Below are positions 21,180-52,083 of a DNA stretch of 64,000 bases, piece after piece; the first letter of the stretch is position 1, and each line of letters begins with the position of its first letter. The notes under the pieces are model-generated. The model was given only the letters and a program-made list of their open reading frames with translations. It had not been told where the DNA came from and searched no databases. The stretch is from an uncultured Burkholderiales bacterium. Lineage in GTDB: Bacteria > Pseudomonadota > Gammaproteobacteria > Burkholderiales > Burkholderiaceae_C. The position numbers were made by a program, and so were the translations under genes. The stretch lies in assembly GCA_945952065.1 (NCBI GenBank), contig CAMFGY010000004.1:186001-250000 (forward strand). Direction: 5' to 3'.

Positions 21180-21218
21180 GGCGCAATTGTCCTTCGACAG
21201 CGGCTGCAATGCCCGCAC

Positions 21219-21227
21219 TTATCCACA
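21219..21227 (+). promoter_or_regulatory. DnaA box upstream of mnmG
   Basis: A perfect TTATCCACA, about 80 bases before the mnmG start, in the divergent space between ykgJ-like and mnmG. A single box suggests DnaA-linked control of mnmG transcription rather than an origin. Basis: sequence match and position only. Confidence 0.55.
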
Positions 21228-21306
21228 GGCCCGCGTAAAATTCAAGGTTTGCCCGCGCTGGAATTTCACAGACGCTGCGGCCCGTGTTTTCAAGGCGAAT
21301 CAGCTC

Positions 21307-23301
21307 ATGCAATACCCCAAGGAATTTGACGTCATCGTGGTCGGCGGTGGACATGCCGGCACCGAGGCCGCGCTGGCCGCTGCCCGCATGGGCTGCGCCA
21401 CCCTGCTGTTGACCCACAATATCGAAACCCTGGGTCAGATGAGCTGCAACCCCTCCATCGGCGGCATCGGCAAAGGCCATTTGGTCAAGGAAGTTGACGC
21501 CTTGGGGGGCGCCATGGCCGCCGCTACCGACGAGGCCGGCATTCAGTTCCGCATCTTGAACGGCTCCAAGGGCCCGGCCGTGCGTGCCACCCGCGCGCAG
21601 GCCGACCGGATTTTGTACAAGGCCGCCATCCGCCAACGCCTGGAAAACCAGCCCAATCTCTGGCTGTTCCAGCAAGCGGTGGACGACCTGCTGGTGGAGT
21701 CCGACGGCCAGGTCGAGCGCGTGGTGGGCGCCGTCACGCAGATGGGCTTGCAGTTCCGCGCCCGTGCGGTGGTACTGACCGCCGGTACGTTTTTGGATGG
21801 CCGCATCCACGTCGGCCTGCAAAACTACGCGGCCGGCCGCGCCGGTGATCCGCCGGCCGTCAGCCTGTCGGCACGGCTGAAGGAACTGAAGCTGCCGCAA
21901 GGTCGCCTCAAAACCGGCACCCCGCCGCGCATCGATGGCCGCTCGATTGATTTCTCCAAATGCGTGGAGCAAGACGGTGACCTGGACCCACTGCCAGTGT
22001 TCAGCTTCATGGGCCAGGCCTCGCAACATCCGCGCCAAGTGCCCTGCTGGATCACCCACACCTCAGAAACCACGCACGACATCATTCGCTCCGGCTTCGA
22101 CCGCAGCCCCATGTTCACCGGCGTGATCGAAGGCGTGGGCCCACGCTATTGCCCCAGCATCGAAGACAAGGTGAACCGCTTTGCCGACAAAGACAGCCAC
22201 CAGATCTTCCTGGAGCCCGAAGGCCTGACGACGCACGAGTACTACCCCAACGGCATCTCCACCTCCCTGCCCTTTGACATCCAGCTGGCTGCCGTGCGCT
22301 CGATTCCGGGCCTGGAGAACGCCCACATCATGCGGCCCGGCTATGCCATCGAGTACGACTACTTCGACCCGCGCGGTTTGAAGTCCAGCTTCGAGACCCG
22401 CGACATTGCCGGCCTGTTCTTCGCCGGCCAGATCAATGGCACCACCGGCTATGAAGAGGCCGCGGCCCAAGGCCTGTTCGCCGGCTTGAATGCAGCCCTG
22501 CAAGTGCGCGGCCAAGGCCCATGGTTGCCCCGGCGTGACCAAGCCTATTTGGGCGTGCTGGTGGATGACTTGATCACCAAGGGCGTGACCGAGCCTTACC
22601 GCATGTTCACCAGCCGTGCCGAATTCCGCCTGCAACTGCGTGAAAACAATGCCGATATGCGCTTGACTGAAACTGGCCGTGAATTGGGCTTGGTGGATGA
22701 TGCGCGCTGGGAGGCCTTCAACCGCAAACGCGATGCTGTTTCACGTGAAACAGAAAAGCTCAAGTCGACCTGGGTACACCCCAACATCCTGCCTGCAGCC
22801 GACGCCGAACGTCTGGTCGGCAAGGCCCTGGAACGCGAGTACAACTTCATCGACCTGCTGCGCCGCCCCGGCGTGGTCTACGACACCCTGGCCGAAGTCG
22901 CCAGCATCGCCCGCCCCAATGCCGGTGTTTCACGTGAAACATTGAAGGCCGAGCTTGGCGAGAGTCTGGCCGAGGCGGTGATCGAGCAGGTGGAAGTCAG
23001 CGTCAAATACGCCGGCTACATCAACAAGCAGACCGAAGACGTGGCCCGCGCCTCGCACTACGAGAACATGCGCCTGCCGGAAGACTTGGACTATTCCCAG
23101 GTCAGCGCCCTCTCCTTCGAAGCGCGCCAGAAACTGGCCAAGCACAAGCCCGAGACGCTTGGGCAGGCCTCGCGGATTTCCGGCGTCACCCCCGCCTCCA
23201 TCTCCTTGCTGCTGGTGCATTTGCGCAAACATCGCTTCAAGGGCTTTGGCACCGATGTCCAAACTCCCACCGAAACCGGCGCCCAAAACAAGGCCGCCTG
23301 A
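21307..23301 (+). CDS. mnmG: tRNA uridine-5-carboxymethylaminomethyl modification enzyme MnmG
   Basis: A 664-residue FAD protein that, with MnmE, installs cmnm5 at U34 of certain tRNAs. The dinucleotide motif [12 protein letters not shown] lies at about residues 11-22; [11 protein letters not shown] and the signature [16 protein letters not shown] are intact, and the C-terminal helical domain is complete. The ATG at 21307 starts the conserved [11 protein letters not shown]. Two perfect parS sites are embedded in its coding sequence at VSRET codons. It heads the mnmG-rsmG-parA group, the usual origin-proximal order. Confidence 0.98.
22737..22752. promoter_or_regulatory. parS: parS site 1 (within mnmG)
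   Basis: TGTTTCACGTGAAACA, a perfect 16-base match to the ParB-binding consensus, read in the mnmG frame as part of DAVSRETEK. ParB should load here and spread; see parA and parB. Confidence 0.92.
22926..22941. promoter_or_regulatory. parS: parS site 2 (within mnmG)
   Basis: A second perfect TGTTTCACGTGAAACA, 189 bases after the first, again over a VSRET codon run (AGVSRETLK). The codons chosen for VSRET are the same at both sites, which keeps the palindrome exact. Confidence 0.92.
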
Positions 23302-23343
23302 ACATCAGCAGCGCCACCGCGTCACCCACAAGAACAAACCCAG

Positions 23344-23997
23344 ATGACCGATCTTGCCCCCTTGCGTCAGCCCCTGGCCGATGCCGCCGCCCGCCTGCAA
23401 CTCGATTTGAGCGCCCAGCAGCAAGAGGCCTTGCTGGCCTATTTGGCGCTGATTGCCAAGTGGAACAAGGTGTACAACCTGACCTCGCTGCGCGACCCGC
23501 AAGCCATGCTGACCCATCACCTGATCGACAGCCTGAGCCTGCTGCCCGCGCTGAGCCGGCATGCAGCAGGCCGCCCGCTGCGCCTGATGGATGTGGGCAG
23601 CGGCGGCGGCTTGCCGGGCGTGGTCATTGCCATCTGCGAGCCCATTATCGACGTCACCTGCGTGGACGCCGTGGCCAAGAAAGCCACCTTCATCAAACAA
23701 GTGGCAGCCGAACTGCGCTTGCCCAATTTGCATGGCGAGCATTCACGGGTGGAAGCGCTGAAGACGGCCCCCTTCGACTTGATCACTTCGCGCGCCTTTG
23801 CCTCGCTCTTGGACTTCACCACCCTCACCCGCCAGCACCTGAAGCCGGACGCGATCTGGCTGGCCATGAAGGGCCAACACCCCGCCGACGAAATCGCCGC
23901 CCTGCCGGCCGACCTGGATGTGTTTCACGTGGAACAACTGGACGTCCCAAACCTGGATGCCCAGCGTTGTTTGATCTGGATTCGACCAAAAAACTGA
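23344..23997 (+). CDS. rsmG: 16S rRNA (guanine(527)-N7)-methyltransferase
   Basis: A 217-residue SAM-dependent methyltransferase that modifies G527 of 16S rRNA. WNKVYNLTSLRDP (about residues 40-52) and the SAM loop MDVGSGGGLPG (82-92) are diagnostic, and ITSRAFASLLDF follows. It begins 42 bases after mnmG. A near-perfect parS lies close to its 3' end. The ribosome binding site is poor, which may mean coupling or reinitiation from mnmG. Confidence 0.97.
   Translation: MTDLAPLRQPLADAAARLQLDLSAQQQEALLAYLALIAKWNKVYNLTSLRDPQAMLTHHLIDSLSLLPALSRHAAGRPLRLMDVGSGGGLPGVVIAICEPIIDVTCVDAVAKKATFIKQVAAELRLPNLHGEHSRVEALKTAPFDLITSRAFASLLDFTTLTRQHLKPDAIWLAMKGQHPADEIAALPADLDVFHVEQLDVPNLDAQRCLIWIRPKN
23921..23936. 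promoter_or_regulatory. parS: parS-like site 3 (within rsmG)
   Basis: TGTTTCACGTGGAACA matches the parS consensus at 15 of 16 positions, in the rsmG frame VFHVEQ. It lies 125 bases before the parA start. The mismatch breaks one half-site position, so binding may be weaker. Confidence 0.75.
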
Positions 23998-28627: not shown

Positions 28628-29037
28628 ACGCTGTTGTCTGCCAAAGCAGGGGCGCTTGAGACCAAGCGCTCCAATTTACACCCAACGCTGCCAGACCCTC
28701 AGGGTGCGGCGTGAATTGGCTGGATTCCGCGACAGGATTCACGGGTGTCAGGTCTTGCCCAAGCAAGCCCGAGCCAATCGGCGTAGCATCGCACCAAGAC
28801 TTGCCCACAAAGCCTTTTTGTACGAAGCTGAACCCAGGTCTATTCTTGGTTTCAAAAGAGGCTCAAGGGATCAAGCTCTGATCACGGTCTGACAGAGCCG
28901 CTCTCGGAAAGCTCTGATGACGCCCCTCTCCTTGCGGAGCCCCAACCGCTCCATCGGGACGCCATCAGAACTTCCCAGCCGGCACACAGCCACCTCACGT
29001 GCCTGTGTGTCGCCTGGGCCCAACCGGAGGCCAGAGC
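28628..29037. other. 410-bp leader region of prkA
   Basis: No gene is supported. It contains a good sigma70-like promoter at 28818-28846 and a GCGCTT-GAGACC-AAGCGC hairpin shortly after parB (about 28648-28665) without a T-run. The long 5' leader left after the promoter (about 185 bases) may hold regulation that I cannot identify. Confidence 0.4.
28818..28846 (+). promoter_or_regulatory. Candidate prkA promoter
   Basis: TTGTAC (28818-28823) and TATTCT (28841-28846) are separated by 17 bases and lie about 190 bases upstream of prkA. In enterobacteria the homologous yeaGH operon depends on stress sigma factors, so other promoters may exist. Confidence 0.4.
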
Positions 29038-30960
29038 ATGGACGTGATCAGCAGTTTCACCAAGCGCTATGAGCGCACCCGCGTCGAGGAAATGTCGCTG
29101 GAAGACTACCTCGCCGAATGCAAAAACAACCCCATCGCCTATGCCACCGCGGCCGAGCGCATGCTGCAGGCGATTGGCGAGCCCCAGATGATAGACACGC
29201 GCAACGATGTGCGCCTGTCGCGGCTGTTCGCCAACAAGACCATCAAAATCTACCCCGCCTTCGCCGAGTTCTACGGCCTGGAGGAAGCCATCGAGCAGGT
29301 GGTCAGTTACTTCCGCCACGCCGCTCAAGGCCTGGAAGAGAAGAAACAAATCCTGTACCTGCTGGGACCGGTGGGGGGCGGCAAGAGCTCCATCGCCGAG
29401 CGGCTCAAGCAGTTGATGGAACAAGTGCCTTTTTATGCGCTGGCCGGCTCGCCGGTGAATGAGTCGCCGTTGGGGCTTTTTGATCCCGCCGAAGACGGCC
29501 CCTTGCTGGAGAAGGAATACGGCATTCCGCGCCGCTACCTGAACCGCATCTTGAGCCCCTGGGCGGTCAAGCGCTTGGACGAGTTCGGGGGTGACATCCG
29601 CCAGTTCAAGGTCATCAAGCGCTACCCCAGCGTGCTCAAGCAAGTGGGCGTGGCCAAGACCGAGCCGGGCGACGAGAACAACCAAGACATCAGCTCCTTG
29701 GTGGGCAAGGTGGATATCCGCAAGCTCGAAACCTTTGCGCAAGATGACCCGGACGCCTACAGCTACTCGGGCGGCTTGTGCCTGGCCAATCAAGGCCTGC
29801 TTGAGTTCGTCGAAATGTTCAAGGCGCCCATCAAGGTCTTGCACCCGCTGCTGACGGCCACGCAAGAAGGCAATTACAAAGGCACCGAAGGCTTTGGCGC
29901 GATTCCCTTTGACGGCATCGTGCTGGCGCACTCGAACGAGAGCGAGTGGAAGAGCTTCCGCAACAACAAGAACAACGAAGCCTTCTTGGATCGCATCTAC
30001 ATCGTCAAAGTGCCCTACTGCTTGCGCGTGAGCGAAGAGGTCAAGATCTATGAGAAGCTGATCCGCAGTTCCTCGCTGGCGACCGCCAAATGCGCCCCCG
30101 GCACGCTGAAGATCATGAGCCAGTTCGCCGTGTTGACGCGCTTGAAGGAGCCCGAAAACTCCTCGCTGTACTCGAAGATGCAGGTTTACGACGGCGAAAG
30201 CCTGAAAGACACCGACCCCAAGGCCAAGAGCTATCAAGAGTACCGCGACTACGCCGGTGTCGATGAAGGCATGAGCGGCATCTCCACCCGCTTCGCCTAC
30301 AAGATCTTGTCCAAGGTCTTCAACTTCGACGCTTCCGAGGTCGCGGCCAATCCGGTGCATCTGATGTATGTGCTGGAACAGCAAATCGAACGCGAGCAGT
30401 TCCCCAGCGACATCGAGCAAAAGTACGTGGGCTTCATCAAAGAGCTGCTGGCGCCGCGCTATGCCGAGTTCATTGGCAAGGAAATCCAGACCGCTTATCT
30501 GGAAAGTTATAGCGAATATGGCCAGAACATCTTTGACCGCTACGTCACCTATGCCGACTACTGGATCCAAGACCAGGAGTACCGCGACACCGACACCGGC
30601 GAGGTCTTTGATCGCTCGGCCTTGAACGGCGAGTTGGAGAAGATCGAAAAGCCCGCCGGCATCAGCAACCCCAAAGACTTCCGCAACGAGATCGTCAATT
30701 TCGTGCTGCGCGCGCGCGCCAACAATGCGGGCAAAAACCCCGCTTGGACCAGCTATGAAAAGCTGCGCACGGTGATCGAGAAAAAAATGTTCTCCAACAC
30801 CGAGGAGTTGCTGCCGGTGATCAGCTTCAACGCCAAGGCCAGCACTGACGAAGCCAAGAAGCACGAGGACTTCGTCAACCGCATGGTCGGCAAGGGCTAC
30901 ACCGCCAAGCAAGTGCGCTTGCTCTGCGAGTGGTACCTGCGCGTGCGCAAGAGCTCTTGA
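29038..30960 (+). CDS. prkA: PrkA serine protein kinase (YeaG family)
   Basis: A 640-residue protein with an AAA+ PrkA domain and a C-terminal kinase-like domain. The P-loop LLGPVGGGKSSIAERL lies at about residues 108-123, and SNESEWKSFRNNKNNEAFLDRI is also conserved across the family, here noted from SNESEW to AFLDRI. In E. coli YeaG works with YeaH in adaptation to nitrogen starvation and other stress. Start chosen at ATG 29038 with CCGGAGG upstream. First gene of the prkA-yeaH-spoVR operon. Confidence 0.95.
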   Translation: MDVISSFTKRYERTRVEEMSLEDYLAECKNNPIAYATAAERMLQAIGEPQMIDTRNDVRLSRLFANKTIKIYPAFAEFYGLEEAIEQVVSYFRHAAQGLEEKKQILYLLGPVGGGKSSIAERLKQLMEQVPFYALAGSPVNESPLGLFDPAEDGPLLEKEYGIPRRYLNRILSPWAVKRLDEFGGDIRQFKVIKRYPSVLKQVGVAKTEPGDENNQDISSLVGKVDIRKLETFAQDDPDAYSYSGGLCLANQGLLEFVEMFKAPIKVLHPLLTATQEGNYKGTEGFGAIPFDGIVLAHSNESEWKSFRNNKNNEAFLDRIYIVKVPYCLRVSEEVKIYEKLIRSSSLATAKCAPGTLKIMSQFAVLTRLKEPENSSLYSKMQVYDGESLKDTDPKAKSYQEYRDYAGVDEGMSGISTRFAYKILSKVFNFDASEVAANPVHLMYVLEQQIEREQFPSDIEQKYVGFIKELLAPRYAEFIGKEIQTAYLESYSEYGQNIFDRYVTYADYWIQDQEYRDTDTGEVFDRSALNGELEKIEKPAGISNPKDFRNEIVNFVLRARANNAGKNPAWTSYEKLRTVIEKKMFSNTEELLPVISFNAKASTDEAKKHEDFVNRMVGKGYTAKQVRLLCEWYLRVRKSS

Positions 30961-31021
30961 GCAAGCCGTGCATTTTGTGACCGTGGGCGTGCCCGGCAAG
31001 GGGCCGCCACAAGCCGGCTGA

Positions 31022-31040
31022 CGCTCGCAAGCCGCGAGCG
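31022..31040 (+). other. Intercistronic hairpin between prkA and yeaH
   Basis: CGCTCGC (31022-31028) and GCGAGCG (31034-31040) form a stem with a five-base loop, extended weakly by flanking GCCGG bases. With no T-run it is more likely an mRNA stabiliser or processing site than a terminator. Confidence 0.45.
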
Positions 31041-31078
31041 GCCGGTCGGCACACCGCCGAGCGGGGGAAGGCATTCTC

Positions 31079-32362
31079 ATGCTGCAACAAATCATCGATC
31101 GCAGGCTCTCGGGCAAGAACAAGTCCATCGGCAACCGCGAGCGATTTCTGCAACGCCACAAGGAGCAGGTGCGCGAAGCGGTGCGCCGCGCAGTGGACGG
31201 CCGTGGCATCCGCGATATGGAGCGCGGCGAAGATGTCCACATCCCCAAAAAAGACTTGAGTGAGCCGGTCTTCGGCCATGGCGATGGCGGCGTGCGAGAA
31301 GTGGTGCGGCCCGGCAACACCGAGCATGTCAAAGGCGACCGCATCGCCAAGCCCAAGGGCGGCGGTCAAGGCCAAGGCGGTGGGCAGGCCAGTGATTCGG
31401 GCGAGGGCGAGGACGACTTCGTCTTCCACCTCAGCCGCGAAGAGTTCATGCAGGTGTTTTTTGAAGACCTGGCCCTGCCCAATCTGGAACGCACCCAACT
31501 GGCCGAAACACCCGAATGGAAAAGCCATCGGGCCGGCTTTGTGTCGGACGGCACGCCGACCAATCTGCATGTGGTGCGCTCCATGCGCGGAGCCCTGGGT
31601 CGACGCATCGCCCTGGGCACCAGCAAGCGGCGTGAATTGCATGAACTGGAGGAGCGTCTGGCGCTGCTACAAAAGCATGAGAACCCCGCCGACCCCGAAG
31701 TCAAACGCATGCTGGCCGAGACCGAGGAACGCATCGCCTTTCTGCGCGGACGCATCGCCGCCATTCCCTTCCTGGACCCCATCGATCTGCGCTTTCGCAA
31801 CCGCGTGCGCGTGCCGGTGCCGAGCAGCCGCGCGGTGATGTTTTGCCTGATGGATGTGTCGGGGTCCATGGACGAAAGCCGCAAGGATCTGGCCAAGCGC
31901 TTCTTCATCCTGCTCTACCTGTTTCTGACCCGGCATTACGACAAGATCGAGGTCGTCTTCATCCGCCACCACACCCAGGCGCAGGAGGTGGACGAACAGA
32001 ACTTCTTCCACGCCACCGAGACCGGCGGCACTGTGGTGTCCAGCGCCTTGGTGCTGATGGAAGAAATCATCCGCGCCCGCTACCCGCGCAATGAGTGGAA
32101 TATCTACGGCGCCCAGGCCAGCGACGGCGACAACTGGCACCACGACAGCGGCCGCTGCCGCGAACTGTTGTCACAACAAATCCTGCCGCTGTGCCGCTAT
32201 TTCGCCTATGTGCAGGTGGCGGAGGCGGAGCAAAACCTGTGGGAGGAATACAGCAAGCTCAGCGAAGAAGTCGGCCACTTTGCGATGCGCAAGGCCACCG
32301 AGGTTTCGCAGATCTATCCGGTCTTCCGCGAACTGTTCAAGAAAGAAGGGGCGCGAGCTTGA
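31079..32362 (+). CDS. yeaH: YeaH/DUF444 family VWA-like protein
   Basis: A 427-residue DUF444 protein. The N-terminal third is charged (a GGGQGQGGGQASDSG linker at about 97-111), a coiled-coil-like section follows (RRELHELEERLALLQKHE), and the C-terminal part is a von Willebrand A-like domain with a MIDAS-type DVSGSMDES. It forms the partner of PrkA in the conserved stress operon. Start at ATG 31079 follows GGGGGAAGG. Exact biochemical role is not established. Confidence 0.95.
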   Translation: MLQQIIDRRLSGKNKSIGNRERFLQRHKEQVREAVRRAVDGRGIRDMERGEDVHIPKKDLSEPVFGHGDGGVREVVRPGNTEHVKGDRIAKPKGGGQGQGGGQASDSGEGEDDFVFHLSREEFMQVFFEDLALPNLERTQLAETPEWKSHRAGFVSDGTPTNLHVVRSMRGALGRRIALGTSKRRELHELEERLALLQKHENPADPEVKRMLAETEERIAFLRGRIAAIPFLDPIDLRFRNRVRVPVPSSRAVMFCLMDVSGSMDESRKDLAKRFFILLYLFLTRHYDKIEVVFIRHHTQAQEVDEQNFFHATETGGTVVSSALVLMEEIIRARYPRNEWNIYGAQASDGDNWHHDSGRCRELLSQQILPLCRYFAYVQVAEAEQNLWEEYSKLSEEVGHFAMRKATEVSQIYPVFRELFKKEGARA

Positions 32363-32381
32363 AGCGCTTGGAGGTCTTGCC

Positions 32382-33980
32382 ATGACGAACCATGAAAACC
32401 GACGCCAACTCGGCATCGCGCCCATCACCGATGAATACGGCGGGCGGCGCTGCAAGCCGCCACTGCGCAGCCTCAAGCCGCTGGCAACGCGCCCCAGCCA
32501 GCCGCTGCCCTCGCCCAGCGACTGGACCTTTGAGTTGATTGACGACTATCACGAAGTGATCCGCGCCACCGCCGAGCGCTTCGGGCTGGACACCTATCCG
32601 AACCAGCTCGAAATCATCACCTCCGAGCAGATGATGGATGCCTACGCCTCGGTGGGCATGCCGGTCAATTACCGGCACTGGAGCTATGGCAAGGAGTTCA
32701 TCGCCACCGAGCGCAATTACAAGCGCGGCCAGATGGGCTTGGCCTATGAGATCGTCATCAACTCCGACCCCTGCATTGCCTACCTGATGGAAGAAAACAC
32801 CATGGCGATGCAGGCCTTGGTGATCGCCCATGCCTGCTATGGCCACAACAGCTTCTTCAAGGGCAACTATCTGTTCCGCATGTGGACCGATGCCTCCTCC
32901 ATCATCGATTACTTGGTCTACGCCAAGAAGTTTGTGGCCGATTGCGAAGAACGCCATGGTCTGGGCGAGGTCGAAAAAACGCTGGACTCCTGCCATGCCT
33001 TGATGAGCTATGGCGTTGACCGCTACCGCCGCCCCGCCAAGCTCTCGCTGAGCCAAGAACGCAGCCGCCAAGCCGACCGCGAGGCGCACGCCCAGCAGCA
33101 GATCAATGAACTCTGGCGCACCCTGCCCAAGCGCGCCGACGCGGCTGCTGAAGCCGCCGCAGCGCGGCGCTTCCCCGATGAACCGCAGGAGAACATTCTT
33201 TACTTCATCGAGAAGAACGCGCCGCTCTTGGAACCCTGGCAGCGCGAGATCGTGCGCATCGTGCGCAAGATCGCCCAGTACTTCTACCCGCAGCGCCAAA
33301 CCCAGGTGATGAACGAAGGCTGGGCCACCTTCTGGCACCACCGCCTGCTCAACCAGATGTACGACGATGGCTACTTGAGCGACGGCATGATGATCGAGTG
33401 GCTGAAGTCCCACACCAATGTGGTGGCGCAGCAGCCCATGGCCAATCTCAATCCCTATGCGCTGGGCTTTGCGATGTACACCGACATCAAGCGCATCTGC
33501 GAAAACCCCACCGAGGAAGACCGTCGTTGGTTCCCCGATATTGCCGGCGGCGACTGGTTGCCCACCATTGACCACGCGATGCGCAACTTCAAGGACGAGA
33601 GCTTCATCGGCCAGTACCTGAGCCCACACTTGATGCGCGAGTTCCGGCTCTTCTCCATCATCGATGATGAAAAACAGGCCGAGTACGAAATCTCCGCCAT
33701 CCATGACGAGAGCGGCTATCAGCATGTGCGCGAAGCGCTGTCACGCCAGTACGACCTGAGCACCCGCGAGCCCAACATCCAGGTCTGGAACGTCAATCTG
33801 CGCGGAGACCGCTCGCTGACGCTGCGCCACACCCAACATATGGGCCGCCCTTTGCATGAGAGCGCGCAGGAAGTGATCAAGCATGTGGCGCGGCTCTGGG
33901 GCTTTGGTGTCGAACTGGAGAGCGCCAATGATCGCGGTGAGATCACCAAACGTTGGTCAGTGCCTGCGCCATCCCATTGA
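32382..33980 (+). CDS. SpoVR family protein (YcgB-like)
   Basis: A 532-residue SpoVR protein. DWTFELIDDYHEVIRATAE (about residues 47-65), HACYGHNSFFKGNYLF and MNEGWATFWHH are strongly conserved, with His/Glu residues suggesting a metal site. In Bacillus SpoVR affects spore cortex; in proteobacteria it accompanies PrkA and YeaH, as here. The ATG at 32382, 19 bases after yeaH, is chosen; the frame runs back into yeaH but that part is an out-of-frame shadow. Confidence 0.95.
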   Translation: MTNHENRRQLGIAPITDEYGGRRCKPPLRSLKPLATRPSQPLPSPSDWTFELIDDYHEVIRATAERFGLDTYPNQLEIITSEQMMDAYASVGMPVNYRHWSYGKEFIATERNYKRGQMGLAYEIVINSDPCIAYLMEENTMAMQALVIAHACYGHNSFFKGNYLFRMWTDASSIIDYLVYAKKFVADCEERHGLGEVEKTLDSCHALMSYGVDRYRRPAKLSLSQERSRQADREAHAQQQINELWRTLPKRADAAAEAAAARRFPDEPQENILYFIEKNAPLLEPWQREIVRIVRKIAQYFYPQRQTQVMNEGWATFWHHRLLNQMYDDGYLSDGMMIEWLKSHTNVVAQQPMANLNPYALGFAMYTDIKRICENPTEEDRRWFPDIAGGDWLPTIDHAMRNFKDESFIGQYLSPHLMREFRLFSIIDDEKQAEYEISAIHDESGYQHVREALSRQYDLSTREPNIQVWNVNLRGDRSLTLRHTQHMGRPLHESAQEVIKHVARLWGFGVELESANDRGEITKRWSVPAPSH

Positions 33981-44481: not shown

Positions 44482-44829
44482 TCAGGCTTGGCGCGGTGTC
44501 GGTGCAGGGTGTTTGATGGCATTCAAGGCGAGCTTGCGTTCCAAAGCGGCTTGAAGATCCACGCTGCAGTGATCGGCAATCTGCAAAAGGTAAAGCATCA
44601 CATCGGCAATTTCCTCGCCCAGATGTTGATGCTTGGCCGGGTTGCCTTTCAGTTGCTGAGATTCTTCCGGCGTCAGCCACTGAAAGATCTCCACCAACTC
44701 TGCCGCCTCCACCACCATGGCCATGGCCAGATTTTTGGGCGTTTGATAAGGCTGCCAGTTGCGCTCGGCAGCGAACTCACGCAGCTGCTTTTGCAGGTTC
44801 TCGATGTCCATGGGGCGCAAGTGTGGCAT
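44482..44829 (-). CDS. MazG-like nucleotide pyrophosphohydrolase
   Basis: A 115-residue all-alpha NTP pyrophosphatase of the MazG/dCTPase group. The metal-binding motif is split into EAAELVEIFQW (residues 41-51) and EEIADVMLYLL (72-82). It hydrolyses a nucleoside triphosphate to the monophosphate and pyrophosphate, cleaning non-standard nucleotides. A second start, six codons in, is possible. It lies directly left of the first DnaA-box element. Confidence 0.92.
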   Translation of the reverse strand: MPHLRPMDIENLQKQLREFAAERNWQPYQTPKNLAMAMVVEAAELVEIFQWLTPEESQQLKGNPAKHQHLGEEIADVMLYLLQIADHCSVDLQAALERKLALNAIKHPAPTPRQA

Positions 44830-44880
44830 GCCTCAAGCGCTTGCGGACCCAAGTGTGCAGTTTCAAAAAAAGTGCTCCGC

Positions 44881-45097
44881 TTTCTTATTCATAGCAATGT
44901 AATTTTTTAAATTGGTAGTCTTAGTAGAGCTCGCACTTTGCTGTGGATAAGTCGATTTTTTCGTTTTGCTTCAATCACTTGAGTCTGAGACAAGCATGTG
45001 GGCGGAACCCGGGTTTGCCAAAGGCTGAACCGATAACAAGTCCGAAGTCTGGCCTGTGCCTGTGGATAAGGCCCTGCTTGTACTTTTTTTATCCACA
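44881..45097. other. DnaA-box element A (AT-rich stretch plus three boxes)
   Basis: A 50-base AT-rich stretch (44881-44930) precedes three perfect DnaA boxes: TGTGGATAA at 44942-44950 and 45061-45069, and TTATCCACA at 45089-45097. The same layout recurs in element B 7 kb away, including the words CGTTTT, CACTTG and GCATGTGGG after the first box. It could be a replication origin or a DnaA-titrating site. No protein gene is supported in 44830-45252. Confidence 0.75.
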
Positions 45098-45180
45098 GCC
45101 TTGTTCCTTGACAGCGCATGACGTCTGTGCAGGCCTTTGGTGTTGAGGCCCTTTGAGGCTCTTTCCGGCTTTTTCCGGCG

Positions 45181-45206
45181 AAAAAAAGGGGAGCCCTTGG
45201 CTCCCC
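45181..45206 (-). terminator. Rho-independent terminator of the PhoD gene
   Basis: GGGGAGCC (45188-45195) and GGCTCCCC (45199-45206) form a stem, followed on the minus strand by seven T. It lies about 45 bases after the phosphatase stop. Confidence 0.85.
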
Positions 45207-45252
45207 TGCTGTTTCAATGGCCTTTGCAGGCCTGAAAACCCGCTGTGCTGCG

Positions 45253-47577
45253 TCAGCCCACGGTGACCTGGGCCGACCCCACCGGCACGCGCACGCGTTT
45301 GACGGAGGCGATAGGCGTGGTGGGCGCCACGCCAGCGCTGAGCGGCGCGATCTTGTTGAAGTCGCAGATCAGTTCCGTCTTGCTCAGGCTCACCACTGCA
45401 TAGCCCTGGGCATTGGAGTCCGCATGGCGGATCCAGGGGTTGTTGACGGCGGGCGGCACGCCTGTTGTGGGGTTGGCAAAGGGGTTCATGCGCTTGACCA
45501 CTTCAGACGCCGGCACCGCGGCCACCGGAATCCCGAGGGCCGTGGCCAGGTTTTGCGCAATCAGGCCGTACAAGGTCATGGCGGGTACGGACTTTTTGGC
45601 GGCGGCCAAAGCGGCATTGGTGGCGGCAATGGTGTTGCCCATATTGCCCATCAGTGTTTCGTCAAACGTGTTGATGGGCGCACTGCTCAAGCCGGCCGTG
45701 GCGCTGACCGCCGCCGCTGGGATCTTGCCGGCCCCAATGGCGCCCATCACTGCGGCTTGCACGGCTGCCGTGTTGCTGAGATCGGTGACCCCTGCAGCCA
45801 TGGCGATCGCGGCCGACAACATTTGGATGGCAATGGCTTCAGCCGCCACTTCATTGATCACCACCAAGGGCTTCACCGGCGCAAACGTGGGGTTGGCTGC
45901 GGCGCCGACAAAGTAGCTGAAGAAAGAGTTGCTGGACACACCGGCGGTGACCAGATCCACCATCACCGGGGTGGGCGTGGCGGCGGCATAGTCGTCCATC
46001 ACCTCGCCAGCAAAGAAGGCATGCAAGTCGCCGGTGATGGCGACCACATTGCTGATCTTGTTGCTGCTCAGGTGCGCCATCAAGTCCTTGCGCTCGCCGT
46101 TGTAGCCGTCCCATTGGTCGGCGTTCAGGATGAAGCGGGTTTTCAAATCCGCCGGGGCGGTGGGCAAGGCGGCGCCGTTCACGCTCATCTTCAGCAGCGA
46201 GGTTTCATTGCCCCAAATCTTCCACAAGGCGGTGGAGGACTTCATGGTGTCTTTCCACCAAGCGCGCTGGCTGGTGCCGAGCATGCTGACCAGGGTCAGC
46301 TTGTCGGCCAGGGCAAACGATGTGGCCACATCGATCTTTTGCTTTTCAACAGCGGCCAAGCTGGCCTCGGGCACCATATAGCGCGAGCCAATTTCGCCCA
46401 GTGGCAATCCGGTGGAGGGGTTGGGCGCGGCTTCGGGAATCAAGTGGTCGGCACGGTAGAGGCGCTCGTCCGTCATCACCAAATGCATCAGCTTGCCGAA
46501 CTTCAGGTCGCGGTAGATGCGAATGTTGTTGATGCCTGACGCGGCGTCCAGGCTGAAGCTGACCTCGGCCGGCATGAATTCAAACCAGGCTTGGCTGGCC
46601 GAGCGGCGACGGCTGGGCTGGGCCACATTGTCACCGCCGGTAGCGGCGCTGTAGCTGCCGTTGTCATAGGTCTCGCGGTCTTGCCAGCAGTCGTCAGAGA
46701 ACTCGTGGTCGTCCCAGATGGCCACAAAGGCAAAGCGCTCGTGCAAGGCTTGCAAACGCGGGTCGCTGCGATAGCGCTTGTACAGATAGCGGTAGTCCAC
46801 CAAGGTGTTCGCGTACTTGCCGCCGCTGGGCAGGGCCACGCCATTGGGCAAGACCAGCGGGCTGTGGGCCGCTTCCACCGCGCCGGCCTGATAGCTGGCC
46901 CCCACGGCTTCGTAGATGTAGTCGCCCAGGTGAACGATGAAGTCCAGGTCTTCCTTGGCCAGGCTGCTCATGCCGGCCCAGTGGTTGACGCTCCAGTCCT
47001 GGCAGGTCATGAAGGCGAACTTCAGCTTGTCGATGTCGGCATCTGCGGCTGGCGCGGTTTTGAAGCGGCCCACCTTGGAGCGACTGTCGCCCGCGATGAA
47101 CTGGTAGTAGTAGACCGTGGCGGGTTTGAGGCCGCTGATCTTGTGACGCACCGTGTTGTCGTAGAAGGCATAGACCGGCACATCGACCTCGCTGTCGATG
47201 CTGCCGCCCAAGGCGGTGTTGCTGCCCAGCAGGGCCGCGTTGTCGGCACTGCTGACGCGCAGCTTGACCTGGAAGTTGGCGTCGGTCGCGGCCGTGGCCA
47301 CATCGTCGGCCGAGGCCGGCACGATACGCGCCCAGAGCAATGCGCCGTCGCTCTTGGGGTCACCCGCGGCCACGCTTTGCGGGAACTTGAAGCTGCCGGC
47401 GGCGGGCGGTGTGTCGGGCAAAGCGGTGCTGCTGCCCGGGAAGGTGGGAGGCAAGGGCTCAATGCCCGAACCGTTGTCATTGCTCATGCAACCGCTCAGC
47501 CCAGTGAGCGCTGACGAAGCGGTGATCAGGGCGCCGGTTTGAATGACCGATTTGCGCAAAAAGCTGCGTCTATCCAT
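45253..47577 (-). CDS. PhoD-like alkaline phosphatase (Tat-exported)
   Basis: A 774-residue metallophosphatase. The N terminus MDRRSFLRKS is a twin-arginine signal, followed by a hydrophobic stretch and a lipobox-like LSGC. Metal-binding motifs of the PhoD family are visible: LGDYIYE, WDDHEFSDD and ITGDLHAFF. The second half holds an alanine/methionine-rich insertion (about residues 560-700), so the protein is longer than the usual 500-600. Start at ATG 47577 with AGGAG seven bases upstream. Divergent from the SGNH lipoprotein. Confidence 0.9.
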   Translation of the reverse strand: MDRRSFLRKSVIQTGALITASSALTGLSGCMSNDNGSGIEPLPPTFPGSSTALPDTPPAAGSFKFPQSVAAGDPKSDGALLWARIVPASADDVATAATDANFQVKLRVSSADNAALLGSNTALGGSIDSEVDVPVYAFYDNTVRHKISGLKPATVYYYQFIAGDSRSKVGRFKTAPAADADIDKLKFAFMTCQDWSVNHWAGMSSLAKEDLDFIVHLGDYIYEAVGASYQAGAVEAAHSPLVLPNGVALPSGGKYANTLVDYRYLYKRYRSDPRLQALHERFAFVAIWDDHEFSDDCWQDRETYDNGSYSAATGGDNVAQPSRRRSASQAWFEFMPAEVSFSLDAASGINNIRIYRDLKFGKLMHLVMTDERLYRADHLIPEAAPNPSTGLPLGEIGSRYMVPEASLAAVEKQKIDVATSFALADKLTLVSMLGTSQRAWWKDTMKSSTALWKIWGNETSLLKMSVNGAALPTAPADLKTRFILNADQWDGYNGERKDLMAHLSSNKISNVVAITGDLHAFFAGEVMDDYAAATPTPVMVDLVTAGVSSNSFFSYFVGAAANPTFAPVKPLVVINEVAAEAIAIQMLSAAIAMAAGVTDLSNTAAVQAAVMGAIGAGKIPAAAVSATAGLSSAPINTFDETLMGNMGNTIAATNAALAAAKKSVPAMTLYGLIAQNLATALGIPVAAVPASEVVKRMNPFANPTTGVPPAVNNPWIRHADSNAQGYAVVSLSKTELICDFNKIAPLSAGVAPTTPIASVKRVRVPVGSAQVTVG

Positions 47578-48009
47578 GAGGTGTCTCCTTTTTTTCAAAT
47601 TTGTGCGAACTGCGGGTCTTGCCGGAGTCGTGCATCAATAGCGCTGAACTCGCGCGATTGATTGTGCAAACAGATGGCGACAAGCCCCCCCGTGAAAGCC
47701 TTGAGCTTGTCGTCTGCCGCCGACGAATCGCAAGTCATTAGAGTCCCGCGCCTAGAAAAAAGATAGCGTTTCCTAGAGTTTTGAGCAGGGCTTGAGACTT
47801 CCCTGCAGCGCATGCGTCGCGCCTCTTGAATGAACTTGTCACCTAGGTGACAAGAACGGTGTTTGCCTGTCGTCAAATCGTCACAAAGCTGCTCGGCATT
47901 TCACGTCATCTCGGGCAAACCACCATGCTTGCGCACAGTCCTGATGGCTAGATTGAGAAGCCGGTCAAAGACAAAAGCCTCGATGAAGGCCATCAGCAGG
48001 AGACAAACC
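47578..48009. other. Divergent regulatory region, phoD/SGNH
   Basis: No gene seen in 430 bases. It contains a perfect 20-base palindrome (47835-47854) and a weak Pho-box-like sequence CTGTCGT...TCGTCAC (47867-47884). AT-rich patches at 47755-47785 may hold the phoD promoter. Confidence 0.35.
47835..47854. promoter_or_regulatory. Perfect 20-bp palindrome, candidate operator
   Basis: CTTGTCACCTAGGTGACAAG reads identically on both strands. It lies 155 bases before the SGNH gene and 257 before phoD. Two-fold symmetry suggests a dimeric regulator; its identity is unknown. Confidence 0.55.
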
Positions 48010-49155
48010 ATGAAGCAGTTCAGAATCACGATGGCGGCCCTCGCAAGCAGCTTGCTTGTGGTCGCCTGTGGCGGCGGTAGCAGCGCCGACACCACGCCCC
48101 CGATCGAAGTCGGCACCGTCAAAGTGTTTGGCGACAGCCTTGCCGATTCCGGCACCTTTGGGCTCAAGTTCACTGTGCAAAGCGCAGACACCCAGATCTA
48201 CCCCGAACGCATCGCTGCCGCCTATGGCAAGACCTTGTGCAACTTTTTTGCGTTTACCGGCAGCACTTTTGTGCCCAATTCAAAAGCAGGCTGCAGCAAT
48301 TTTGCGATTGGCGGCGGCGTGATCAACTCGGCAACGCTGCTTGCCGCCGATCCACGCCGCGTGCCGGTGCAGTTGGCCACCGCGGCATCGCTTGGCGCTT
48401 ACAACGCCAGCGACTTGGTGGTCATCGACGGGGGCGGCAATGACGCCGCCGATCTGGTCGGCGCCTACCTTGCCATTCCCAAAGACAAAGGCGCTTCCTT
48501 CATGAAGCTGCTGGGCACTTTGCTGACGCCAGCGCAAGTCGGCGCCATCATGGCCGGCGGCGCCAGCACCATTGCTGCCGGCGGCGTGACCTATATGCAG
48601 GCCTTGGCGGACAGCTTTCAGGCCAGCATCAAAACCCATGTGCTGGACAAATCGGCTCAACGTGTGGTGATTCTGAACATGCCCAGCATCACCAACACAC
48701 CGCGCTTCCAAATGGTCTTGGACGGCATTGCTGCGGCCTCCGGCGGCGGCACCGCTGGCGCCACCGCGCGTGCGCAATCAGAAGCCTTGTTCCGTTCTTG
48801 GATGGAAGGTTTCAACAAGCAGTTGGAAGCCAAGTTCACCGGTGAAAGCCGGGTGGCGATTGCCGACTTCTACACCGCCTTCAATGACCAGGTCTCCATG
48901 CCGGCTCAATTTGCTTTAAGCAATGTGAAGACGCCGGCCTGCCCGGTCACCGGCATGGGCAGCGATGGCTTGCCGACCTACACCTTTGCCACCTGCACCG
49001 CCACGGCCCTGAGTGCCGCGCCACCTGCGGGCGTCAGCGGCGCCGATTGGTGGAAGAGCTATGCCTTCTCCGACGGCTTCCACCCAACGCCCTATGGTCA
49101 TCAATTGCTTGGGCAGTTGATCTCCAAGACCCTCACCGTCAAGGGCTGGCTGTAA
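48010..49155 (+). CDS. SGNH/GDSL hydrolase lipoprotein
   Basis: A 381-residue exported esterase. Signal peptide with lipobox VVAC, Cys20 to be lipidated, and a GGGSSADTTPP spacer. The nucleophile is Ser43 in FGDSLADSG; DGGGNDAADL is the block III region and FSDGFHPTPYGHQ carries the Asp-His pair. It should hydrolyse acyl or acetyl esters at the outer membrane. AGGAG precedes the ATG. Followed by the OmpW-like gene after 30 bases, probably one operon. Confidence 0.93.
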   Translation: MKQFRITMAALASSLLVVACGGGSSADTTPPIEVGTVKVFGDSLADSGTFGLKFTVQSADTQIYPERIAAAYGKTLCNFFAFTGSTFVPNSKAGCSNFAIGGGVINSATLLAADPRRVPVQLATAASLGAYNASDLVVIDGGGNDAADLVGAYLAIPKDKGASFMKLLGTLLTPAQVGAIMAGGASTIAAGGVTYMQALADSFQASIKTHVLDKSAQRVVILNMPSITNTPRFQMVLDGIAAASGGGTAGATARAQSEALFRSWMEGFNKQLEAKFTGESRVAIADFYTAFNDQVSMPAQFALSNVKTPACPVTGMGSDGLPTYTFATCTATALSAAPPAGVSGADWWKSYAFSDGFHPTPYGHQLLGQLISKTLTVKGWL

Positions 49156-49185
49156 AGCCGGGCTAAGCACAGGAGCAATCGCATC

Positions 49186-49860
49186 ATGATGACGAAACAG
49201 CAACTCTTCTGTCTTGCCCTGATGGCCTTGGCTGCCGCGGGCAATGCCCAGGCTCAAGCGACGGGCAGCCTGACGGTTCGACTTGGCGCCACCACCATCA
49301 AGCCCGATGTCAGCAGCGGCAACTTGAGTGCGCCCAGCTTGGTGGGCACCCAGGTTGACATCAAAGACGCCAGCCAAATCACCGGCGGCATCTTCTACAT
49401 GCTGACCGAGAACATCGCCATCGATGTGCCGATTGGTTTGCCCTTCAAACACGATGTGATGGGGGCGGGTGCGATTCAGGGTTCAGGCAAGCTGGCGGAT
49501 GTCAAAGCCTTGCCGATCACCGTCACCGCGCAGTACCGCTTGGGTTCACCCAGCAGCATGCTCCGGCCCTTTGTTGGTGCGGGCCTGACTTATGCCGTGT
49601 TTTCCAATGCCAAAGCCACCTCCGCGCTGTCGGGTCTGACCGGCGGCAGCCCCACCAACCCCACCACCATGTCGATGAAGAACGCCTATGGTCCAACGGT
49701 ACAACTGGGCTTGGACATGAAACTGGGGGATCGTTGGTCGCTCAACGGTTCGGTCACCAAGGTCTTGTTGAAGACCACCGGCACCTTGTCCACCGGCCAA
49801 ACCATTGAAGCCGAGCTGAACCCCTTGGCCTTGTCGTTTGGTATTGGCTATACCTTCTGA
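49186..49860 (+). CDS. OmpW family outer membrane protein
   Basis: A 224-residue beta-barrel. Signal peptide ends at AQAQA (about residue 25). Family features include VRLGATTIKP, GIFYMLTENIAIDVPIGLPFKHD, LPITVTAQY and the terminal IGYTF with final Phe. OmpW proteins pass small hydrophobic compounds and respond to stress. The start may be either of two adjacent ATGs after AGGAG. Probable partner of the SGNH lipoprotein. Confidence 0.92.
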   Translation: MMTKQQLFCLALMALAAAGNAQAQATGSLTVRLGATTIKPDVSSGNLSAPSLVGTQVDIKDASQITGGIFYMLTENIAIDVPIGLPFKHDVMGAGAIQGSGKLADVKALPITVTAQYRLGSPSSMLRPFVGAGLTYAVFSNAKATSALSGLTGGSPTNPTTMSMKNAYGPTVQLGLDMKLGDRWSLNGSVTKVLLKTTGTLSTGQTIEAELNPLALSFGIGYTF

Positions 49861-49890
49861 GCTCAAAGCAGTTCGCAGCGCAGCGAAAAC

Positions 49891-49922
49891 AAAAAAGGGG
49901 AGCGTCATGCTCCCCTTTTTTT
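49891..49922. terminator. Bidirectional rho-independent terminator
   Basis: AAAAAAGGGGAGC (49891-49903) and GCTCCCCTTTTTT (49909-49921) form a long stem with a five-base loop and T-runs in both directions. It separates the OmpW gene from the convergent queE. Confidence 0.88.
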
Positions 49923-49969
49923 GGGTCAATACCGTCGTTCAGTTGTTGCACGCAGCCAAGCTGCAGACC

Positions 49970-50605
49970 TCAAGCGATGCCAATCACTTTGTGCATCTGC
50001 ACCGACAAGCGCCATTGCGGATGGGCCATGCAGTAGGCCACCGCCTCGCGGGTGTGCTGCGACTTCAACACGCTGTCCATGGGTTGCAAAAAGAAATGTT
50101 GGAAGTCCAGGGCGGCAAAACGCTCGGGTCGCGCCAAGGGCTGCGGGAACACCAGCTTCAATTCATGGCCGCGCGTCAGCACGATCTCGGCATCGGCCTT
50201 GGGGCTGACGCAAATCCAGTCCAAACCCTCGGGCGCAGGCTGGGTGCCATTGGTCTCGACAGCAATCTCAAAACCTTTTGCATGCAAGGCGTCGATCAAG
50301 GCCTTGTCCAATTGCAGCAGCGGTTCACCGCCTGTGCACACCACATAGGGCTTGCCGGGCAGGCCCTGCGGCCATAGGCTGGCAATCGCCGTGGCCAGGC
50401 TTTCAGCGTCCGCAAATTTGCCGCCGCCCACGCCATCGGTGCCGACGAAATCGGTGTCGCAGAAATTGCAGACGGCGCTGGCGCGGTCTTCTTCACGGCC
50501 GTTCCACAAATTGCAACCGGCAAAGCGGCAAAACACCGAGGCCCGGCCGGCCTGGGCGCCCTCGCCTTGCAAGGTGTAGAACATTTCCTTGACGGCGTAA
50601 GTCAT
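49970..50605 (-). CDS. queE: 7-carboxy-7-deazaguanine synthase
   Basis: A 211-residue radical SAM enzyme in queuosine/deazaguanine synthesis; it converts 6-carboxytetrahydropterin to CDG. The cluster cysteines are C31, C46 and C49 (CNLWNGREED...CNFCDTDF), the C-x14-C-x2-C spacing of the Burkholderia type rather than CX3CX2C. TGGEPLLQ is the SAM region. Its start overlaps the stop of the queD-like gene by four bases. Confidence 0.95.
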   Translation of the reverse strand: MTYAVKEMFYTLQGEGAQAGRASVFCRFAGCNLWNGREEDRASAVCNFCDTDFVGTDGVGGGKFADAESLATAIASLWPQGLPGKPYVVCTGGEPLLQLDKALIDALHAKGFEIAVETNGTQPAPEGLDWICVSPKADAEIVLTRGHELKLVFPQPLARPERFAALDFQHFFLQPMDSVLKSQHTREAVAYCMAHPQWRLSVQMHKVIGIA

Positions 50606-51723
50606 ACGGGAATCACCGGCCCTTCCATATCGGCGCAGACGATGGCCCCACAGCCGCGGGTTTCATACATATCCACGCGGTCCAGCTGAGGCAACACGGC
50701 GCGGCCCTTGGCCAAGACCCAGGCCGAGAGACTCGCGGTATCGCCATCGGGCAGATCGGCAATCTCAAACAAAGGCCGGTGATCAATCGCCTTGAAGATG
50801 GGATCGAACTGTGTTTTGACGTCACCAAAGTCCACCGTCCAGCCCATCAATTGGTCCAGCGGGGCGCTCAGATGCAGGCGCAAGGTGTAGGTGTGGCCGT
50901 GAATGCCACGCAGGGGATGTTCGCTGGGCGCGCGCTTGAGCTGAATGGCGCTGTCCAGCGTCAACTCTTTCCAGATGCGGTAGTGCTGGCCATCGAAATT
51001 GGCGCCGCAAGAGCCGGTTTCATACACGGTCAGCCATGACAACTCGGGCAGCTGCGGCTTCATCCGCTCCCACAACCAGGCCGAGATCACTTCGCTGGTG
51101 GGGTTGCTCAGGCCTTCGATCTCGTTCAGGCAGTGGTAGTTCAGCTGCATGTGGAAAGGAGCCCAGACTTCGTCCAGATGGTCGTAGTCCACGCTCAGAT
51201 CGCGCTCGCCCAGATCCTGGTTGGCATGCACGATCACTTCAAAACCGTGGCCATGCATGCGACCACATTTATGGCCGGCGGGCACATGAGGCAGGCGGTG
51301 CGCGGCTTGAAAACGGTAACGCCGCCAGACATGGGCCATGCCATCGGCATCCAGGTCCACGCCCGAATGTTGGGTGCTTTGAATGCCCACTTGCTGAATG
51401 CCGGGCACGTCAAATTCATGTTCCAGGCGCTGGCGAATCCAGCGTGCAATGTTCTCGTCGGTGGGCTCGGCGATGGCCGTATTCAGCAGGGCGTGGTCGA
51501 GTGGCGCCACGCAGGCTTCCAAGCGGCGGCGCAGTTCTTCCACCTCAGCGCCCGGAAACGGTGCCCAGCCCTGCGGCAAATGCGCGCGAATGGTGGCGAA
51601 ATAGCTGTGGCCATGCAGGCCGCGGCTGCGGTGGCCTTCGGGCAGCGCCGAGATCTGGCAGGCAGACTCAAAGCCGCAAGAGGCAGAGTAAATCGTGGAG
51701 GGGGGGGTGGTGCTTGTCTTCAA
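50602..51723 (-). CDS. Triple-repeat 6-carboxytetrahydropterin synthase (QueD-like)
   Basis: A 373-residue protein made of three T-fold repeats; ordinary QueD has about 120 residues. Repeat 2 (about 133-250) keeps the zinc histidines H142, H157, H159, catalytic Cys153 and Glu235, but the Asp-His pair is Asn195-Tyr196. Repeat 3 (about 252-373) lacks Cys and the first His but has D314-H315 and E354. Repeat 1 (about 10-130) has H37, H39 and D76-H77. The frame starts at a TTG (51723) with no clear ribosome site and no in-frame ATG nearby; the true start is unsure. Overlaps queE, so it makes QueE's substrate. Confidence 0.88.
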   Translation of the reverse strand: MKTSTTPPSTIYSASCGFESACQISALPEGHRSRGLHGHSYFATIRAHLPQGWAPFPGAEVEELRRRLEACVAPLDHALLNTAIAEPTDENIARWIRQRLEHEFDVPGIQQVGIQSTQHSGVDLDADGMAHVWRRYRFQAAHRLPHVPAGHKCGRMHGHGFEVIVHANQDLGERDLSVDYDHLDEVWAPFHMQLNYHCLNEIEGLSNPTSEVISAWLWERMKPQLPELSWLTVYETGSCGANFDGQHYRIWKELTLDSAIQLKRAPSEHPLRGIHGHTYTLRLHLSAPLDQLMGWTVDFGDVKTQFDPIFKAIDHRPLFEIADLPDGDTASLSAWVLAKGRAVLPQLDRVDMYETRGCGAIVCADMEGPVIPV

Positions 51724-51842
51724 AGGGTGCCAACACCGGCATCAGGCGGGTGCGTGGGGCAAGAGTGTGACATGAAGCGCGCACTTCGTGCGCAGCCCTG
51801 TTGCGCGAGGCCTTTGAAGCCCAAGGTTCTTGAAAACCTCTC

Positions 51843-52073
51843 TTGTACTCTTCTTGATGGATTTAATGTTTTAAGAATAGTCGTTGTAATAGGGTCGCGC
51901 GCTCGCTGTGGACAAGCCCCAATTTCGTTTTCATTTCAAGCACTTGCCGTGCCTGAAAGCATGTGGGCCACAGGCCTTGAACTTGCTGCAGCGAATAGAA
52001 CAAGTTTCAGCCTTCGTCGGCGCCTGTGGACAAGCGGCTACTTATTCAAAAACCATCCACAAACTTATACACA
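51843..52073. other. DnaA-box element B (AT-rich stretch plus boxes)
   Basis: Diverged second copy of element A. An AT-rich stretch (51843-51895) is followed by TGTGGACAA at 51907-51915 and 52025-52033 (each one mismatch from consensus), CCATCCACA at 52053-52061 and TTATACACA at 52065-52073, a perfect TTATnCACA. The first two boxes are 118 bases apart, against 119 in element A. No gene is supported in 51724-52083. Confidence 0.72.
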
Positions 52074-52083
52074 GCCTGGCGCC

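Follow-up and report, generated by a model that had tools for sequence, protein, structure and literature searches.

The 64,000-nucleotide stretch analysed here as a whole (the window, G000:C4:186001-250000) comes from an uncultured Burkholderiales bacterium of the genus Roseateles/Paucibacter and carries two homologous elements, A and B, 7 kb apart at the place where the GC skew of the chromosome switches sign. We read A and B as oriC modules because the skew switch, their anatomy (a duplex-unwinding element (DUE), a DnaA-trio-like run and DnaA boxes), the parS sites and conservation agree, and the same observations back the replication origin that a preliminary description of this DNA had offered as one of two possibilities. 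Overall, we lean towards the view that A is the main start site of replication and that B has been kept as an auxiliary or alternative one.

Local alignment of A with B scored 52, compared with 17.7 ± 2.2 (maximum 26) for 1000 shuffles of B, and when 250-bp tiles in 50-bp steps from both strands of the window were aligned against A, those over B scored 40-52 and every other one at most 28. Both modules lie on the same strand with their parts in the same order. A combined A+B profile (R2), whose alignment includes the window's own A and B, gave exactly two matches at E ≤ 0.001 in the whole genome (5.27 Mb in 74 contigs), namely A and B. Whole-genome BLAST with A (E up to 10) did not recover B; since only A itself and matches of 15-23 bases were returned, B is too diverged for BLAST with A, and it is visible by direct alignment and by profile. 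Re-reading of the sequence placed both elements where the preliminary description had put them, with the words CGTTTT, CACTTG, GCATGTGGG and CAGCCTKG common to the two as claimed, and the reported 118-119 bases from box 1 to box 2 were likewise confirmed, with the boxes at 44942 and 45061 in A (119 bp) and at 51907 and 52025 in B (118 bp).

Each module runs from an AT-rich stretch through a trio-like run, a 14-nt spacer, box 1 (-), a CAANNNNTTR pattern and a TGTGGG site to box 2 (-) and box 3 (+) (Table 1). A fourth box occurs only in B, its place ending in CACA in 11 of the 12 B copies and in 0 of the 16 A copies aligned (G002 and G004, in which R2 detected B, and G016, with its one copy, contribute no such rows to the alignments). 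Measured as nearest-neighbour energy of 50-mers, over 64 kb in the window genome and 20 kb in others, the two AT-rich stretches are the least stable places of the window, the next 50-mer lying at -61.1 kcal/mol and the window mean at -78.4 (sd 4.5); both A and B thus have the unstable DUE beside the boxes that is expected of an oriC, at ranks 1 and 2 of 64 kb. DnaA boxes with at most one mismatch numbered nine in the window (4.2 ± 2.1 in shuffles), six of them inside A or B, and three such boxes within 160 bp were seen in 0 of 200 shuffles. The box clustering of a chromosomal oriC was accordingly present in A (three perfect boxes) and in B (three boxes with one mismatch and one with two). A lone perfect box was also noted at window position 21219, within an open reading frame (ORF; 21178-23301) remote from both modules. 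The CAANNNNTTR pattern between boxes 1 and 2 matches the right part of the consensus for integration host factor (IHF). Beside the first box, conserved trio-like columns were found in both A and B of the genus; in the 16 A copies, 9 of the 12 columns of the run were invariant and 11 of the 12 were conserved at 94% or more. The runs of A and B fit the DnaA-trio as a passage of PMC6669920 describes it, a repeating 3'-GAT-5' element adjoining DnaA boxes, and the 14-nt spacer falls within the 16 nt permitted by the search for the basal unwinding system (BUS) outlined in part of PMC8287927.

Table 1. Features of the two modules and their surroundings, in window coordinates.
Feature	Position	Strand	Remarks
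oriC module A, whole	44869..45118	+	R2 match E 2e-50; A DNA query matches 16/18 genus genomes including its own
A duplex-unwinding element, AT-rich	44880..44929		least stable 50-mer of the window, -56.8 kcal/mol
A DnaA-trio-like run TAGTCTTAGTAG	44916..44927	+	14 nt before box 1
A DnaA box 1 TTATCCACA	44942..44950	-	
A IHF-like CAANNNNTTR, between boxes 1 and 2	44972..44981	+	putative assignment; pattern here in 14/16 A copies
A weak DnaA-box-like site (TGTGGG)	44997..45005	-	TGTGKG in 16/16 A copies; putative weak box
A DnaA box 2 TTATCCACA	45061..45069	-	
A DnaA box 3 TTATCCACA	45089..45097	+	identical in 16/16 A copies
oriC module B, whole	51836..52079	+	R2 match E 6.2e-39; B profile matches 12 genus genomes including its own
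B duplex-unwinding element, AT-rich	51842..51891		second least stable 50-mer of the window, -57.5 kcal/mol
B DnaA-trio-like run TAGTCGTTGTAATAG	51878..51892	+	14 nt before box 1
B DnaA box 1 TTGTCCACA	51907..51915	-	one mismatch
B IHF-like CAAGCACTTG	51937..51946	+	putative assignment; CAANNNNTTR in 12/12 B copies
B DnaA box 2 TTGTCCACA	52025..52033	-	one mismatch
B DnaA box 3-like CCATCCACA	52053..52061	+	two mismatches
B DnaA box 4 TTATACACA	52065..52073	+	one mismatch; B only
MazG-like gene, left neighbour of A	44482..44829	-	PF12643; adjoins A in 11/11
queE-queD, between A and B; queD start just left of B	49970..51723	-	TIGR04508, TIGR03367; order kept in 11/11
Three parS sites (22737, 22926, 23921)	22737..23936		0.02 expected; about 21 kb from the modules

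Cumulative GC skew (302/308 kb of contig C4) was lowest at 43154 of the window, which is 1.7 kb to the left of A, and stayed on a plateau until about 55 kb. In G005, a complete congener in one contig, 20 skew samples of 20 kb showed one sign per arm with switches at 4.18-4.42 Mb and 1.84-2.08 Mb, and the fine skew minimum (4324873; 320 kb, 3 kb unread) lay between B (4324063-4324300) and A (4329658-4329905). The modules of both genomes are thus located at the skew minimum, and this check, which had been proposed at the outset, did not place the origin far away. Among 13 genomes examined, the 20-kb flanks went from negative to positive in 11 (exceptions G264 and G020), the switch being weak in four of the 11 (G297, G081, G248 and G289), where one or both flanks were within 1.5 standard errors of zero; the minimum of the stretch lay between the modules or no more than 2 kb from them in eight of these genomes, at a distance of 5-7 kb in G081 and G248, and a long way from them in G297, G264 and G020. 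From the parABS, gid and atp genes reported earlier for this region, a ParA-type ATPase, ParB, the three parS sites, RsmG (gidB) and atp genes were confirmed. The dnaA gene lies to the right of A, at C4:276193, some 45 kb from A and 38 kb from B; one perfect DnaA box stands 0.6 kb upstream of the match to its AAA+ domain. Genes for a PrkA kinase and a SpoVR-family protein come after parB in the origin region (window 28999-33980, +).

To follow the modules through the genus, R2 was applied to 18 genomes including the window's own. Both modules were present in 13 of the 18, and in 13 of the 16 that were at least 90% complete (G012, at 76%, and G016, at 79%, fall below); a single module was found in G012, G013, G015, G016 and G017. 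The search for the paired element in relatives, another check suggested beforehand, therefore recovered the pair across the genus. G002 and G004 had their modules on separate contigs, and in all 11 genomes with both on one fetched stretch, the window's own among them, A and B kept the same strand and order at a spacing of 1.7-7.0 kb. The gene order was gnat - mazG - A - (phoD, GDSL, ompW, variable) - queE - queD - B - methyltransferase - suv3 helicase, with B directly after queD in 11/11 and a methyltransferase match 2-8 kb further on in 4/11. The queD product itself (373 aa; window 50602-51723, -) contains three PTPS stretches according to Pfam and looks like a multi-domain QueD fusion.

Sequence constraint was concentrated in the functional motifs of both modules. 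Columns of the trio, box 1, the IHF-like site and box 2 were invariant at 29 of 40 positions in A, compared with 42 of 205 elsewhere in the module (Fisher P = 4e-10), and at 26 of 40 in B, compared with 34 of 203 (Fisher P = 2e-9); the B profile was built, with all copies set to one orientation, from the same 12 genus genomes that it matches. Mean identity between genomes was 0.71 for the B core, 0.65-0.66 for its partly coding flanks and 0.58 for shuffled sequence, and 0.75 for the A core, 0.74-0.81 for its coding left flank and 0.60 for its right flank. The stability rank was 1-2 for A and 1-3 for B in the 11 genomes with both modules on one stretch. Among the 12 B copies, one had a perfect box 1, six a perfect box 2 and one a perfect box 3, the corresponding counts for the 16 A copies being 12, 15 and 16, and the TGTGG...AA cores of boxes 1 and 2 were invariant across the 12 aligned B copies. 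These alignments indicate that B is under selection, and its weaker boxes would represent a kept difference in strength, not decay. The perfect boxes that the preliminary description gave A are confirmed, and its reading of the boxes in B as partly decayed finds no support, the motif columns of B being nearly as conserved as those of A.

B is missing from three species. At the loci of G013, G015 and G017 (L099, L101 and L102), only 34 bp separate the queD match from the suv3 match, and this gap contains no B and no methyltransferase match. We read this absence as a probable loss, because the A copies of these genomes nest inside the genus (support 96 with G001, G003, G008 and G010), and the existence of a three-species clade without B implies that A alone can suffice.

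Beyond the genus, the A model matched 285 of 299 family genomes, and about 95 of the 299 gave two or three matches (counted by eye with overlaps kept, under stricter filters). In the 42 family genomes assembled as one contig (41 from the family search plus G005), R2 detected at least one module in every genome and two or three distinct modules in 21, the second match of G276, which overlaps its first, not being counted; duplicated origin-like elements, earlier called unusual, are therefore not so in this family. Module starts within one genome were 270 bp to 29 kb apart. In the 12 genomes with at least 80 kb read, all 27 modules coincided with places that rank among the 12 least stable of the stretch. 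Fourteen of the 42 have a module no more than 3 kb from dnaA, and more than one module was found in 3 of these 14 dnaA-attached genomes versus 18 of the 28 detached ones (Fisher P = 0.020, uncorrected for phylogeny); the distance in G249 was taken without circularity correction and leaves it detached either way. G287 has one module and G288 two, all of them detached from dnaA. An order-wide search matched 35 of 150 genomes, 30 of the 35 outside the family; since these matches were few and mostly weak, the module model is largely family-specific. Among 20 Burkholderiales loci around the MazG-like gene, nine had two modules (among the named species P. oligotrophus, R. asaccharophilus, R. subflavus, R. 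aquatilis and Mitsuaria sp. PDC51), four had one and seven had none within the fetched stretch, and in the last seven the gene may be located elsewhere than the origin.

Several individual arrangements were also recorded. G021 has three same-strand modules over 29 kb (G021:C1:40052, 49266, 69320), with near-zero GC skew for the 9 kb between the first two and positive skew thereafter. Opposite-orientation pairs were found in G297 (C1:98480, +, and 118968, -; 20 kb apart) and G264 (C1:2357451, -, and 2386112, +; 29 kb apart), one module of the latter being beside dnaA. In another family of the order, G362 gave three weaker one-strand matches within 1.7 kb (C1:1853643-1855263).

A tree of 67 modules (short alignment, midpoint root) placed the 16 A copies of the genus in one clade (support 92). 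No B falls inside it, which suggests that the A and B lineages had already parted when the genus arose. Eight modules of relatives joined the A clade (support 93), six of them the MazG-side or only module of their locus, and the MazG-side module of R. asaccharophilus clustered with far modules of other species. Two further genera (G021 and G221; G081 and G248) again each had two separately conserved paralogue sets (support 83 each). Copies from the same genome grouped with each other in four cases (G147, G297, G264 and R. subflavus; 82-100), which suggests recent duplication or conversion. A single module adjoining dnaA is plausibly the older layout, although the polarity is our reading.

How the two modules might work can be outlined from known oriC mechanisms. 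In each module, DnaA bound at box 1 would be loaded from there onto the trio beside it, so that the AT-rich stretch opens; the other boxes would help this opening, to which an IHF bend between boxes 1 and 2 probably contributes. A, with its perfect boxes, would then be the main start site, and B, with its conserved DUE and trio and its weaker boxes, may fire more rarely than A, or only at high levels of active DnaA. The conservation of B's DUE and trio-like run argues for unwinding at B.

Several observations weigh against this account, among them the skew between the modules. Raw skew pooled over 11 genus genomes was -0.050 left of A, -0.006 in the A-B interval (-0.030 to +0.043 in single genomes) and +0.024 right of B. 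After gene correction, in a fit that uses a simple home-made ORF caller, the interval in the genus was distinct from the left flank and not clearly so from the right (bootstrap 0.875), and in nine genomes of other genera it was distinct from the right flank and not clearly so from the left (0.898); the near-zero interval skew of G021 and G221 was separable from neither flank. In the B-less G013, G015 and G017, skew was -0.012 to -0.018 (raw) in the 5 kb right of A and, gene-corrected, -0.069 (0-5 kb) and -0.034 (5-10 kb), so that this clade showed no more positive skew right of A than genomes with B. Since the interval is not clearly separable from the right flank after gene correction and the B-less control fails, the skew does not show that B fires, and interval skew as a sign of alternating use of A and B was dropped for the same two reasons. 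In addition, B is evidently dispensable in the three genomes that are without it, and the 12 B copies form no single clade, falling into three (support 89, 100 and 96), one of which lies nearer to A than the other two do (83). IHF binding at the CAANNNNTTR sites is putative and read from a short pattern. Finally, a loose trio pattern matched 21 of 41 modules in 19 one-contig family genomes, five of the 21 being clean TAGTAGTAGTAGTA runs, and missed the other 20; the trio is therefore well established in the genus, but by this pattern only patchily present outside it.

Other explanations of the pair were weighed against the same evidence. One is that A is the sole origin and B a DnaA-titration or nucleotide-exchange site (datA- or DARS-like) descended from an old oriC copy, which would account for the weaker boxes 1, 2 and 3 of B and for its absence from one clade; we think this unlikely, given that B retains an unstable DUE (11/11) and a trio-like run, which a pure titration site does not need, and the titration site that had been named as the second possibility is thus not shown. 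We similarly doubt that A and B form one bipartite origin in the manner of B. subtilis or H. pylori, in which A would be unwound and B would loop to it as a DnaA-loading partner. Two DnaA-box clusters around spacer genes, in the same strand and order in 11/11, are what such an origin predicts, but both modules carry a DUE and a trio-like run, the clade without B speaks against a need for it there, and the spacings observed, 1.7-7.0 kb in the genus and 0.3-29 kb in the family, are unlike divided origins, which part of PMC4285127 describes as two DnaA-box subregions, only one with a DUE, spanning up to about 2 kb. That B is a decaying relic of a duplicated origin is improbable: its one-mismatch boxes, and its disappearance together with the neighbouring methyltransferase gene in G013, G015 and G017, would be in keeping with decay, yet B does not look like a relic because 13 of the 16 near-complete genomes keep both modules, its motif columns are far more conserved than the rest of B and approach the conservation of A's, its core is more conserved than its flanks, and its DUE is unstable in 11/11. 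It is very improbable that A and B are merely DnaA-regulated promoters of mazG and queDE, even though A adjoins the mazG start and B the queD start in 11/11, as the GC-skew switch is located here, homologous modules lie close to dnaA in a third of the one-contig genomes, and the B-less clade retains queD.

Bacterial chromosomes are usually taken to have one origin, and the natural exceptions that we found in print are divided origins with one unwinding site or single bioinformatic cases. Here a pair of neighbouring modules is maintained across a genus, half of the 42 one-contig family genomes have more than one module, and relatives with a single copy provide natural controls. A broader proposal, which we advance only tentatively and do not hold to be probable, is that many Burkholderiaceae chromosomes natively have two to three DnaA-dependent origins at the same locus, each competent on its own and used in alternation or jointly, and that the duplication accompanied the origin's departure from dnaA. 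If this is true, a large family of bacteria departs from the one-origin rule in a stable and inherited way. The arrangement makes it testable whether one chromosome can maintain and coordinate two oriCs, and whether the second serves as backup, regulator or co-origin; it also raises the question of why duplication is commoner where oriC has left dnaA. Among the matches listed, judged by title and the start of the abstract, we found no published description of the paired-module arrangement, and the literature searches on the Paucibacter replication origin and on Roseateles oriC found no paper, subscription journals lying mostly outside the scope of these searches. The parts of PMC8287927 and PMC10225481 that describe BUS and oriC searches do not mention paired modules in Burkholderiaceae.

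Several known systems resemble the pair in part. The layout of E. coli oriC, with a DUE, a first box, an IHF-type site and further boxes, is the same as that of the modules, which differ in being two where E. coli has a single copy and in that the IHF assignment here is a sequence pattern. The datA and DARS sites comprise DnaA boxes and an IHF site without an unwinding element, so B, which has a DUE, falls outside this class. An IHF loop-back model for E. coli is presented in part of PMC10225481. As in a BUS-type oriC (DUE, DnaA-trio and DnaA boxes), each module combines an unstable AT-rich stretch with a TAG-type trio-like run and, beyond a 14-nt spacer, a DnaA box; the locus departs from that type in holding two modules, A at 45 kb and B at 38 kb from dnaA. 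The bipartite oriC of B. subtilis and H. pylori shares with our locus a gene-separated pair of DnaA-box clusters, but has its DUE in one half only, whereas here a DUE and a trio-like run occur in both and the clusters lie further apart, at varying distances; neither half is dispensable in vivo in those two species, as stated in a passage of PMC6669920, whereas B is missing in one clade here. Pseudomonas aeruginosa has two autonomously replicating chromosomal origins, only one of which is essential in laboratory conditions (PMC4403523), and thus two origin-like elements on the chromosome as in our case, a comparison made by description, paralogy aside. The putative double origins reported by Gao (2015) in Acidaminococcus fermentans, Dehalobacter sp. 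CF, Ralstonia pickettii 12D and Ochrobactrum anthropi (PMC4403523) likewise give two candidate oriCs per chromosome; those four chromosomes have their origins side by side or 150-882 kb apart, whereas the modules described here are kilobases apart, kept through a genus and recurrent across a family.

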